Assembly: GCA_000350305.1 (NCBI GenBank)
Contig: CP002916.1
Coordinates: 1,240,001-1,304,000 of the forward strand
From: Thermoplasmatales archaeon BRNA1
Lineage (GTDB): Archaea; Thermoplasmatota; Thermoplasmata; Methanomassiliicoccales; Methanomethylophilaceae
Length of the DNA stretch: 64,000 bases
Direction of reading: 5' to 3'
In this document: in pieces, positions 1,492-9,114 of the stretch
Numbering within the stretch: position 1 is the first letter of the stretch
Layout of the letters: each line of letters begins with the position of its first letter
Made by a program: the position numbers and the translations under genes
Notes under the pieces: model-generated
Seen by the model: only the letters and a program-made list of their open reading frames with translations
What the model was told of the DNA's origin: nothing
The model's database searches: none

Positions 1492-2840
1492 AGATCGGAC
1501 TGGAGATCCACGTCCAGCTCCCAACCAGGAGCAAGATGTTCTGCTCCTGCCCCACGACGGACGCGCCCGCGCCCAACACCCACGTTTGCCCCGTCTGCCT
1601 CGGGATGCCCGGATCCAGGCCCGTCCTCAACCGCCAGGTCCTGGTCTACGGAATCATGCTCGCCAAGATGCTGGGCTGCACCGTCACCGACACCACCTGG
1701 TTCTCCAGGAAGACCTACTTCTACCCGGACATGTCGAAGTCCGTCCAGATCACCCAGTACGACCACCCCGTCGGGGAGAGGGGGATGTACTACCTCAACA
1801 CCAAGGACGGGCAGACCAAGCCCATCCGCATCACAAGGATCCACCTGGAAGAGGACCCCGGGAAGACCAAGAGGACCTCCGACATGCACGCCCTCGTGGA
1901 CTACAACCGCTCCGGGATCCCCCTGGCGGAGATCGTCACCGAACCCGATCTGGCTTCCCCCGCGGAGGCGAGGGCGTTCCTCACCCAGCTGGTGCAGGAC
2001 ATCAGGCACACCATCGACCTGCCCGAGGGCGGAGAAAGGAGCATCCGCTGCGACTGCAACATCTCCGTCGGGAAGGAGAGGTGCGAGATCAAGAACGTCA
2101 CCGGACTGAAGAACGTCGAGGTCGCCCTGAACTACGAGATGGTCAGGCAGATCAAGGTCCTGAAGGCCGGAGGTAAGATCGAGCGCGCCACCATGAACTT
2201 CGACGAGTCCAGGGGCGTCACCTACGGCGCCAGGAAAAAGGAGTTCGAGGCCGACTACGGTTACATCGACGAGCCCGACCTCGGAATATTCCACATCGCC
2301 GACCTGGCGAAGTCGATCAGGATCAAGGAATCGCCTGCGAAGATGATCCAAAGGATCACCGGGCAGTACGAACTCGACCCCAAGATGGCCAAGCAGCTGG
2401 TGTCCACATCCATAGATCTGGCACAGTTCTTCGAGACCGTCATCGAGAAGTTCGGGAAGGACAACGCCGTCAAATGGGTGGCCGGTCCCGTCACCGCCAA
2501 CTGGAAGAAGTTCGAGGAGAGGGACGGCAACGTCGAGGACATCCTCCCGATCATCGAGGACTTCGTCTCCGGCAGGATCACTGACACCGAGTGCACCCTC
2601 AAGATCAAGAGCCTGATGACCGGCATCGATGCGGCCGAGGCCGCCGCCAGCTCCGAGGGTCTAGACAAGATGATCTCGGACTTCCTGGACAAGAACCCCA
2701 AGATCGTCGACGACTACGGCAAGGGGAACGAGAAGGCCGCCAACAGCGTCATCGGCTACGTGATGAAGAGCACCGGCGGACAGTACTCCTCCGCGGACAT
2801 CGTGGATGCCGCCAAGAGGATCATCAAGTCTAGGCTCTGA
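1488..2840 (+). CDS. gatB: Amidotransferase subunit B (tRNA-binding kinase)
   Basis: GatB phosphorylates the mischarged aminoacyl-tRNA and receives ammonia from GatA. I place the start at GTG 1488 (MKIGLEIHVQL), not at the in-frame ATG 1446 inside gatA, because GGAGGTG lies just upstream and the protein then begins with the conserved GLEIHVQL motif. Zn-site cysteines are seen in CSCP and CPVCLGMPG near residues 19-40. 450 residues with a C-terminal YqeY-like tail. The stop is followed by a strong hairpin shared with aspS. Confidence 0.96.
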   Translation: MKIGLEIHVQLPTRSKMFCSCPTTDAPAPNTHVCPVCLGMPGSRPVLNRQVLVYGIMLAKMLGCTVTDTTWFSRKTYFYPDMSKSVQITQYDHPVGERGMYYLNTKDGQTKPIRITRIHLEEDPGKTKRTSDMHALVDYNRSGIPLAEIVTEPDLASPAEARAFLTQLVQDIRHTIDLPEGGERSIRCDCNISVGKERCEIKNVTGLKNVEVALNYEMVRQIKVLKAGGKIERATMNFDESRGVTYGARKKEFEADYGYIDEPDLGIFHIADLAKSIRIKESPAKMIQRITGQYELDPKMAKQLVSTSIDLAQFFETVIEKFGKDNAVKWVAGPVTANWKKFEERDGNVEDILPIIEDFVSGRITDTECTLKIKSLMTGIDAAEAAASSEGLDKMISDFLDKNPKIVDDYGKGNEKAANSVIGYVMKSTGGQYSSADIVDAAKRIIKSRL

Positions 2841-2858
2841 AACCTTTGATAATAAAAT

Positions 2859-2888
2859 GACCCAGATGCCAAAAGGGGCATCTGGGTC
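2859..2888. terminator. Bidirectional terminator between gatB and aspS
   Basis: A perfect 12-bp inverted repeat (GACCCAGATGCC / GGCATCTGGGTC) with a 6-nt loop sits in the 57 bp between two converging genes. Stretches of T follow on both sides (CTGTTTTA to the right; on the other strand the flank reads ATTTTATT). It would end both transcripts. Confidence 0.75.
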
Positions 2889-2897
2889 TGTACTGTT

Positions 2898-4718
2898 TTA
2901 CTGCTCCGCGTCAGGGTTGAACTCTTCGGCGTCGGAGATGTCGAAGTCTCCCGCCAGGGAGATGATCTGCAGCTCCTGGAGCTTCTCGTCGTCGACCGGC
3001 GACGGGGATCCGTCGAGCAGGGACACCGCCCTCTTGTTCTTGGGGAAGGCGATGACCTCCCTGATGGTGTCCTTGTTGAGCAGGATCGCACAGAGCCTGT
3101 CGATACCGATGGCGATTCCTCCGTGGGGCGGCGCTCCGTAGGAGAGGGCCTCGACGAAGTAGTCGAACCTGGCCTGGATGGTCTCGTCGGAGAGTCCGAG
3201 CCTGTGGAAGACCTCGATCTGGGTCTCGGCGTCGTGGATACGCTCGGAGCCGGATCCCAGCTCGTTTCCGTTCAGGCAGAGGTCGAAGCACGCTCCGCCG
3301 CAGTCAGGGTCATCCAGGTCGCCGGTGGGCAGGACGAACGGGTGGTGGAACGCGTCGCGCTTGCCGGAGACGGGGTCGATCTCGAACATGGGGTTCTGGT
3401 CCATCCAGAAGAACATGAACTCGTTGTCGGGGACCATTCCGAGGTCCTCGGCGATCTTCCTCCTGAGGAACCCTCCGCCCTCGTAGGTGGACTTCCAGGG
3501 ACCGGCGATGAGGAAGCACAGGTCTCCCTCCTCCGCGCCCAGGGTGGTCTTGATGTTCTCGAGGATCTCGGGGGTGAAGTACTTGGTGATGTTGGAGGTG
3601 AGGACGCCGTTCTCGCACCTCATCCAGGTGAGGCCTCCCAGTCCGCACTTCTTGGCGTACTGGATGTAGCGGTCGACCTCGTTCCTTCCGACCTCTCCCA
3701 TCTCCTTCTTGATGCACATTCCGGCGACGATTCCGCCCTCGGACATGATGCTCTGGAAGATCTTGTAGGGGACGTCCCTGACGACGTCGGTGAGCTTGGT
3801 GAACTCCAGCCCGTACCTCATGTCGGGCTTGTCGGATCCGAACCTCTCCATGGCGTCGCGGTATCCGATGTGGGGGAAGGGGGTCTTGAGCTCGGTGCCG
3901 TAGAGTCCCTTCCACATGTACGAGACCATTCCCTCGATGAGGTCCTGAATATCCTTGGAATCGCAGAAGGACATCTCGATGTCCAGCTGGGTGAACTCGG
4001 GCTGCCTGTCCTTGCGGGAGTCCTCGTCGCGGAAGCACCTTGCGACCTGATAGTAGCGGTCCATTCCGCCGACCATCAGCATCTGCTTGAACTGCTGGGG
4101 GGACTGGGGAAGCGCGTAGAAGGTTCCGGGGTGGACACGGGAGGGGATGATGTAATCCCTAGCGCCCTCGGGGGTGGACCTTCCCAGAACCGGGGTCTCG
4201 ATCTCCAGGAATCCCTGGGACTCGAGGTACACGCGTGCCAGGTGCACGAGCCTGCTCCTGAACTCCATGGTGCGGATCATGTCGGTCCTCCTGAGGTCCA
4301 GGTACCTGTACTTCATGCGGGTGTCCTCGTCGGGGAGGACCCCTTCCTTCTGGTCCCCGATCTCGAACGGGGGGAGCTTGGACTTGGACAGGAGCTCGGC
4401 ATGGGTGATGAGCACCTCGATCTCGCCGGTGGGGTTGGACTCCACGGCGGTTCCCTCGACGCGGGCCCTGACCTTTCCGTTGATCAGGACGCAGGACTCG
4501 CGGGAGAAGGTGTCCATGGTCTTGGCGATGGCATCCCTATTGGCATTGGAGGGGAGGTCCTCAGGGTCGAAGACGACCTGGGTGATTCCGTACCTGTCAG
4601 CGAGGTCGATGAACCTCACTCCTCCGTGGTCCCTGGAGAACCTAACCCATCCCTCCAGACAGACCTCTTTGCCGATGTCGGAGGCTCTGAGCTCTCCGCA
4701 AGTGTTCGTTCTTCTCAT
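2898..4718 (-). CDS. aspS: Aspartyl-tRNA synthetase, bacterial type with GAD insert
   Basis: Charges tRNA with aspartate. At 606 residues it is the bacterial form (about 590), not the roughly 430-residue archaeal form. An OB-fold anticodon domain is at the start, then class II motif 2 (FRDEDSRKDRQPEFTQLD), a GAD insert near 290-410 and motif 3 (GIAIGIDRL). The N-terminal loop reads RDHGG with His31, where discriminating enzymes such as E. coli have Leu. Together with gatCAB on the opposite strand this suggests a nondiscriminating enzyme that also makes Asp-tRNA(Asn). GAGG lies eight bases before the ATG. Confidence 0.95.
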   Translation of the reverse strand: MRRTNTCGELRASDIGKEVCLEGWVRFSRDHGGVRFIDLADRYGITQVVFDPEDLPSNANRDAIAKTMDTFSRESCVLINGKVRARVEGTAVESNPTGEIEVLITHAELLSKSKLPPFEIGDQKEGVLPDEDTRMKYRYLDLRRTDMIRTMEFRSRLVHLARVYLESQGFLEIETPVLGRSTPEGARDYIIPSRVHPGTFYALPQSPQQFKQMLMVGGMDRYYQVARCFRDEDSRKDRQPEFTQLDIEMSFCDSKDIQDLIEGMVSYMWKGLYGTELKTPFPHIGYRDAMERFGSDKPDMRYGLEFTKLTDVVRDVPYKIFQSIMSEGGIVAGMCIKKEMGEVGRNEVDRYIQYAKKCGLGGLTWMRCENGVLTSNITKYFTPEILENIKTTLGAEEGDLCFLIAGPWKSTYEGGGFLRRKIAEDLGMVPDNEFMFFWMDQNPMFEIDPVSGKRDAFHHPFVLPTGDLDDPDCGGACFDLCLNGNELGSGSERIHDAETQIEVFHRLGLSDETIQARFDYFVEALSYGAPPHGGIAIGIDRLCAILLNKDTIREVIAFPKNKRAVSLLDGSPSPVDDEKLQELQIISLAGDFDISDAEEFNPDAEQ

Positions 4719-7334: not shown

Positions 7335-7455
7335 TCGGACGGCCACAGCAGTGGGGTTCACCCGGTCCCATCTCGAACCCGGCAGTTAAGCCCACTCACG
7401 TAGGTGTCGCGTACTGTGTTGCGCAAGTGCACGGGAAAGCACCCACGCTGTCCAC
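7335..7455 (+). rRNA. rrf: 5S ribosomal RNA
   Basis: The stretch matches the archaeal 5S pattern: helix I pairs GGACGGC (7337-7343) with GCTGTCC (7447-7453) over 7 bp, and the internal landmarks CCCATCTCGAACC, GTTAAGCCC and GCGTACTG are in order. Length is about 117-121 nt. No 16S or 23S genes flank it, so the rRNA genes are unlinked here, as in Thermoplasmata-related lineages. A T-rich run (CTTTTAACTC) follows and probably terminates it. Confidence 0.93.
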
Positions 7456-7553
7456 TTTTAACTCTCATCCGTTGGGCGGAGCTGTTTTTCCCTGTCCGAC
7501 AGGACAATGAGTTGAGCGTATCAATCAGTTTTTTGACATTCCATTCTAGAATC

Positions 7554-7562: not shown

Positions 7563-7599
7563 CATCAGCCGATAGCACCCCTATCAAGGAGCAATCTCA

Positions 7600-9114
7600 A
7601 TGGATTACATTGTCCTCATAGGTTTCATCGCCTACTTCGTGATCGTCCTCCTTGTGGGATTCTACTTCTACAACAGGTCCCACGGACTCCACGATTACAT
7701 CCTGGGCGGAAGGAAACTCAATCCCTATGTGGCGGCCCTGTCCGCGCAGGCATCCGACATGAGCGGATGGCTGCTTCTCGGACTGCCCGGTTCGATCTAC
7801 CTCTTCGGTATCGGACAGGCATGGATCGGAATCGGTCTCGCCATCGGTTCCTACTTCGCGTGGCTGCTCATCGCAAAGCGCCTCAGGAACTACACCAAGA
7901 AGGCTAAGGACTCCCTTACCCTCTCCCAGTTCTTCTCCAACCGTTTCAGGGACCAGAAGAACTACCTGAAGACCATGAGCGCCATCGCCATCATCGTCTT
8001 CTTCATCCCCTATGTCGCATCCGGGTTCGTCAGCGCCGGGAACATCCTCATGTCCTTCGTGGACCTGGATTACGTCCCCTGCATGCTGATCGGTGTGGTC
8101 GTCATCATCGCCTACACCGTCCTCGGAGGTTTCAAGGCGATCTGCTGGACCGATGTCCTGCAGGCAATGCTGATGATCGTGGCCATCATCATCGTCCCCC
8201 TCGCCGCCATAGGCGAGCTCGGAGGATGGGACGAGGTCATGGCCGTCGCGGACAGACCCGCGTTCTCCGGATTCTTCGACTTCTTCAAGAATGCCGACGG
8301 ATCCACCATCGCCGCCCTGTCCATCATCTCCTCCCTCGCGTGGGGTCTGGGATACTTCGGTATGCCCCACGTCGTCGTCAGGTACATGGCCCTCGAGGAC
8401 CCCAAAGAGGCCAAGGTCGCCAGGCGCGTCGGTACCGGATGGATCATCGTCGCTCTCGCGTTCGCCATCCTCGTCGGTCTCGTCGGACAGGCTTACCACC
8501 CCGGATTCACCACCAAGTCCGATGCCCAGACGATCTTCATCGTCATGGTCGGCGGCATCTTCGCGCCAATCATCATGGGTGTCCTGTACTCCGCGCTGAT
8601 GGCTGCCGTCATGAGCACCTCCGACTCCCAGCTCCTGGTCGCCTCCGCGGCGGTCACCAACGACCTCATGAGCCTCACCAAGAAGTAGTACGCTCCCCGG
8701 GAGCTCATGTGGATGGCTAGGGCGGTCGTCGTGATCATCGCCATCGTCGCTGCCGCCATCGCGCTCGACCCCGAGAGCTCCATCATGGACCTCGTGTCGT
8801 TCGCATGGGCGGGATTCGGTGCGGCGTTCGGACCCGTCGTCCTCCTCTCCCTGTACTGGAGGAGGTCCAACGGCTGGGGTGCCCTCGCCGGAATGATCAC
8901 GGGATTCATCACCGTCATCATCTGGAACACCTTCCTGTCCGCCGACAGCGTGTTCGGTCTCTGTGCCTACGACACCGGCCTGTACGAGCTTGTGCCCGGA
9001 TTCCTCTTCGCGCTCATCGCCATAATCGCGGTCAGCCTCATGACCCCCGAGCCCGAGAAGGAGATTCAGGACGAATTCGACGAGGTCGCCGCCGAGTCCA
9101 AGGGGCTGTTCTGA
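7600..9114 (+). CDS. putP: Na+/proline symporter (SSS family) with in-frame amber codon
   Basis: Sodium-coupled solute transporter of the PutP branch; with the amber codon decoded it is 504 residues, essentially the E. coli PutP length (502). TAG 8686-8688 falls at codon 363, in the cytoplasmic loop before ELMWMAR, a segment that aligns with ELVWVGR of E. coli PutP. Membrane helices continue in the same frame on both sides (WAGFGAAFGPVVL, GALAGMITG), and the gene ends at TGA 9114. No start codon with a ribosome site opens the downstream part. Reading TAG as pyrrolysine gives an intact protein; otherwise a 362-residue truncated product or a pseudogene results. Transport of proline itself is inferred from the family. 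Confidence 0.9.

Follow-up and report, generated by a model that had tools for sequence, protein, structure and literature searches.

In the Methanomassiliicoccales, TAG codons predicted to specify pyrrolysine (Pyl) interrupt a range of genes beyond those for the methylamine methyltransferases. Sixteen non-methyltransferase Pyl proteins have been predicted in M. alvus, where only 1.6% of genes end in TAG (PMC4153887), and 46 amber genes have been reported for ISO4-H5 and 25, including 9 methyltransferases, for ISO4-G1 (PMC5011839, PMC4824259). The predicted non-methyltransferases include Cas1, MtxX, DGGGP synthase and a transporter in M. alvus, adenylate kinase and Cas3 in ISO4-H5, and an NRPS in ISO4-G1 (PMC4153887, PMC5011839, PMC4824259). 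Outside this order, the Pyl of the tRNA-His guanylyltransferase Thg1 of Methanosarcinales is described, in the account of Heinemann 2009 cited in PMC8211752, as a case of neutral evolution.

A comparable arrangement is found in Thermoplasmatales archaeon BRNA1, an organism of the bovine rumen with a genome of 1.46 Mb and 58% GC (PMC5011839); the assembly is a single contig of 1,461,105 bp, and the portion sampled here has a GC content of 58.4%. The gene in question, putP, encodes a Na+/proline symporter and occupies positions 7600-9114 of the window, that is, of the whole 64,000-nucleotide stretch of DNA analyzed; it, its Shine-Dalgarno-like motif and the features within it that are given below lie on the plus strand. 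The frame opens at ATG 7600, 8 nt downstream of a Shine-Dalgarno-like AAGGAG recognized by eye at 7586-7591, and closes at TGA 9112-9114, the true terminator. As the initial annotation had it, the frame contains a single internal stop, the TAG at 8686-8688, which is codon 363, and its product is 504 residues long when this codon is read as Pyl. A lone 5S rRNA gene resides just upstream of putP, at 7335-7456, and no 16S or 23S rRNA genes were called within the window; scattered rRNA genes are known in Methanomassiliicoccales (PMC4153887).

The similarity to PutP that had been noticed on both sides of the TAG is borne out by profile searches. The read-through product matches TIGR02121 (Na_Pro_sym) with 569.5 bits, above the cut-off of 515.5, over residues 5-498 and profile positions 3-485 of 488, so that a full-length, above-cut-off match spans codon 363. 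A complete Pfam SSF domain (298.6 bits, residues 33-435) likewise extends across the codon. Judged by these matches, the predicted product is a full-length member of the PutP family, with Na+/proline transport as its probable activity. Coding character is similar on the two sides of the TAG, with scores per codon of 0.43 upstream and 0.39 downstream (the mean gene scores 0.36) and GC3 values of 0.84 and 0.88, respectively; the downstream half is intact, and the decay there that had been named as grounds for rejecting a Pyl-containing protein was not found. The TAG itself falls in a variable loop that follows the helix bearing the MST(S/A)DSQLL motif and precedes the next helix. An AlphaFold2 model built from a 4-sequence alignment reached a pLDDT of 37.8 and was set aside.

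The downstream half had also been said to have no start of its own. An in-frame ATG does exist at 8707-8709, six codons past the TAG, where it opens a 135-aa ORF and is preceded, at a short spacing of 3 nt, by GGGAG at 8699-8703. This is the sole plausible restart site. The codon corresponds to Met370, and because this Met belongs to an LMW motif shared by most orthologues, it appears not to be a newly evolved start.

Whether such a TAG could be decoded depends on the rest of the genome, and pylT, pylS, pylB, pylC and pylD, the genes proposed as a check, are all present. PylS is encoded at C1:990729-991415 (262.7 bits, above the family cut-off) and is followed in a syntenic cluster by PylC- and PylD-like genes. 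PylD_N scores 123.6 bits, above its cut-off, and the PylC assignment is based on ATP-grasp matches and synteny together with a PylC_N score of 22.5, below the cut-off of 27. PylB (426.6 bits, above cut-off) is encoded at C1:442315, 0.55 Mb from the pylS cluster, and pylB of M. alvus is likewise set apart, about 0.7 Mb from pylTSCD (PMC3941956). Directly 5′ of pylS is a tRNA-Pyl-like gene with CTA in its anticodon loop, the sequence of which is matched in 36 of the 61 family genomes searched, at up to 98% identity. Neither ARAGORN nor Rfam called a tRNA-Pyl here, and the minimum-energy fold is not a clear cloverleaf; the assignment follows from the sequence read by eye, its position and its conservation. 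The cluster also holds two mtmB genes that carry a TAG, as well as an mttB at which Rfam detects PYLIS_3. Taken together, the pyl genes constitute a complete predicted pyrrolysine cassette, and along with the methylamine genes and the close relatives of mtmB they suggest a place in the Methanomassiliicoccales. Selenocysteine was discarded as an alternative residue on the grounds that the codon is TAG and that no tRNA-Sec scored above its cut-off.

The use of TAG across the genome was surveyed in 480 kb (33% of the genome), comprising 400 kb of stretches, the pyl cluster and the window, in which a simple codon-usage caller identified 468 ORFs. Among their terminators, TGA accounts for 421, TAA for 35 and TAG for only 12. 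A coding-like in-frame extension follows 9 of the 12 TAG codons but only 1 of the 35 TAA and 34 of the 421 TGA codons (Fisher p = 4.6e-8 for TAG versus TGA and TAA combined). Three of the TGA extensions, checked by Pfam, proved to be separate neighboring genes, for example ribosomal S11 followed by an RNA polymerase subunit, and NUDIX followed by TatD. In 10 of the 12 TAG ORFs the TAG is internal to a single protein family match that spans the codon. Four of these are methyltransferases (mtmB twice, mtbB and mttB), and the other six are putP; a polyphosphate:AMP phosphotransferase (PAP, L062 14501-15892); a PHP/CehA-like hydrolase (L063 6280-7239, minus strand); a nitrilase-family enzyme (L071 15078-15812, plus strand); a GNAT acetyltransferase (L061 3679-4107, plus strand); and an ABC transporter ATPase (L066 17121-17915, minus strand). 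The remaining two are low-scoring, doubtful calls with no family match. Because 10 of the 12 are internal by family match and the other two are weak calls, TAG is likely to be nearly or wholly a sense codon in this genome. Scaling from the six found in this one-third sample, there would be roughly 19 non-methyltransferase Pyl genes genome-wide, a number close to that predicted for M. alvus.

A search of 147 genomes of the order yielded putP orthologues of which only the copy in this genome carries the TAG. Alignment of relatives had been recommended to learn whether the TAG is conserved or replaced: a sense codon stands at this column in the 32 other orthologues of a 33-sequence alignment, the TAG is not conserved, and one of the relatives is frameshifted. 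The residues found there are of eleven kinds (Y, K, A, D, F, G, N, H, S, R and E), and the entropy of the column lies at the 99.6th percentile. Two of the relatives' codons, AAG and TAC, are each one base from TAG. This proximity is what would be expected if the TAG resulted from one wrongly sequenced or assembled base and the true codon were sense. Such an error, however, would not favor the most variable columns, and the same TAG pattern recurs in other genes of this genome and in congeneric species; an error is therefore very unlikely. A contig scan returned only bacterial PutP relatives at 45-46%, and thus no further strain of this species.

The uniqueness of the TAG to this genome would also suit a fresh pseudogene, in which a recent nonsense mutation stops translation at codon 362 and leaves a dead fragment. 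The gene is indeed patchy, being absent from many relatives, and some surviving copies are damaged. The orthologue in G032, which belongs to a different genus, is disrupted by a TAA and by a frameshift that falls within the variable loop holding the TAG in BRNA1 (L043 (G032:C3:185000-190000), about 1542-3052, minus strand), and that in G035, a draft genome, lies in three out-of-frame pieces. The G032 copy is nonetheless the top match to the first 359 residues, at 71%, whereas full-length copies from the same genus reach at most 65%, which suggests that putP has been transferred or lost within the family. Because the gene is patchy and the G032 copy is broken, it seems that this transporter can be lost in the family.

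The BRNA1 gene itself carries few marks of such a fate. The ratio of downstream to upstream branch length is 0.92 for this putP and 0.98 across the tree, which argues that the part 3′ of the TAG shows no raised rate of evolution on this branch and that no decay has set in, although this relative-rate test is a weak one that cannot date the TAG: the branch may be far older than the codon, and a very recent inactivation would give the same branch lengths. The TAG is a single lesion, accompanied by no others, and its column ranks among the most variable of the 504, a place that a random knock-out would seldom hit. The separate genes found behind the TGA codons that were checked give no sign of general nonsense decay, and the genome encodes a complete Pyl cassette together with nine other genes in which a TAG lies inside one family. 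A pseudogene is, on this balance, very improbable.

Comparison with other TAG-containing genes helps to place the putP codon. In mtmB, which served as a positive control, the TAG is present in nearly all copies. The TAG of putP, unconserved and in a variable column, contrasts with that of mtmB and does not look like a codon for a functionally required Pyl. Two mtmB homologues of genus g7 (G051:C2:3122-4504 and G049:C164:4271-5638; 58% identity) lack any TAG and are possibly Pyl-independent. Three species of the genus (represented by L062 of this genome, L075 of G037 and L076 of G043) each carry a TAG in PAP at a different codon, the three being 226, 85 and 111, which points to independent gains in one gene, and the nitrilase TAG is confined to this genome. 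Overall, this looks like the pattern expected if TAG codons arise by mutation and survive, neutrally, wherever Pyl is tolerated.

It is conceivable that the TAG controls or divides the product, with termination occurring when Pyl-tRNA is scarce and the full-length protein being made only when methylamine metabolism supplies Pyl, or with fragment 1-362 assembling with a second fragment restarted at Met370. There is a precedent in the bacterium Acetohalobium arabaticum, in which TAG decoding depends on trimethylamine (PMC8211752), and both the inter-helix location of the TAG and the GGGAG and in-frame ATG that follow it are compatible with this idea. However, the great rarity of TAG terminators points instead to constitutive decoding, an argument that has also been made for M. 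alvus (PMC4153887), and a useful switch should be conserved, which this TAG is not. The ATG at 8707 encodes an ordinary Met that is shared widely, and the SD-like motif is too close to it. No Rfam PYLIS match lies near 8686, although PYLIS_3 is detected at mttB, and the RNA fold 3′ of the TAG is unremarkable (z = -0.83); a PYLIS is, for its part, not needed for TAG decoding (PMC8211752). A regulated or split product is accordingly very unlikely, and the regulatory or otherwise special role that the initial annotation envisaged for Pyl gains nothing from a TAG that occurs in one genome only, in a highly variable column, with neither a PYLIS-like element nor an unusual RNA fold downstream. It is likewise very improbable that full-length PutP depends on the Pyl supply in such a way that proline uptake is coupled, by accident or by selection, to methylamine metabolism and pyl expression.

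Very probably, then, the putP TAG is constitutively decoded as Pyl and position 363 has no special function, and of the initial proposals that of a Pyl-containing PutP in an organism encoding the complete pyl cassette stands as the best explanation. PylB, PylC and PylD would make pyrrolysine, and PylS would charge it onto the amber-decoding tRNA encoded by pylT. Since Pyl is apparently made and charged on this tRNA, and since TAG is hardly ever the end of a gene, ribosomes that meet a TAG would be expected to insert Pyl. The codon itself may have arisen by a point mutation, for example of AAG or TAC to TAG, in a loop of PutP that appears to tolerate almost any residue, and decoding, by preserving the full-length transporter, would have allowed it to persist. 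Selection on Pyl itself is not apparent, given that the TAG is conserved in no relative, and the residue most likely plays no special part in proline transport.

These observations place a membrane transporter among the ordinary proteins predicted to contain pyrrolysine. They also provide a clean comparative case for TAG having been captured neutrally as a sense codon, with putP interrupted at a variable site in a single species and PAP interrupted at three places in three congeners. There is a practical consequence as well: genes of this type would be divided or missed by standard annotation, and gene calling in this genome should treat TAG as sense. Kivenson et al. are said to have proposed, in Science in 2025, an all-TAG pyrrolysine code for certain archaea, and the apparent behavior of TAG as a sense codon genome-wide in BRNA1 is similar.

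The putP TAG can finally be set beside the systems already described. Like those of MtmB, MtbB and MttB in the same genome, it is probably read as Pyl; in those enzymes, however, Pyl is an active-site residue, and the mtmB TAG is kept in nearly all orthologues, whereas that of putP is unconserved and situated in a variable loop. Thg1, as described in the source cited above, is similar in being a non-methyltransferase gene with a TAG explained by neutral appearance, but it is a different protein of a different lineage that has been studied at the bench, while putP is known here from sequence. The closest resemblance is to the non-methyltransferase Pyl genes of other Methanomassiliicoccales, with which putP shares a single in-frame TAG in an ordinary gene, homologues lacking the TAG, a full pyl cassette and the rarity of TAG as a terminator. 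It had been proposed that a Pyl-containing PutP would fall outside the known methylamine methyltransferases; this holds for putP, but many such genes have already been reported (PMC4153887, PMC5011839, PMC4824259). The difference lies in the gene: a full-text literature search of partial coverage returned no proline symporter linked to pyrrolysine. The predicted Pyl-containing PutP further exemplifies an established habit, its gene being one among many rather than a new system.
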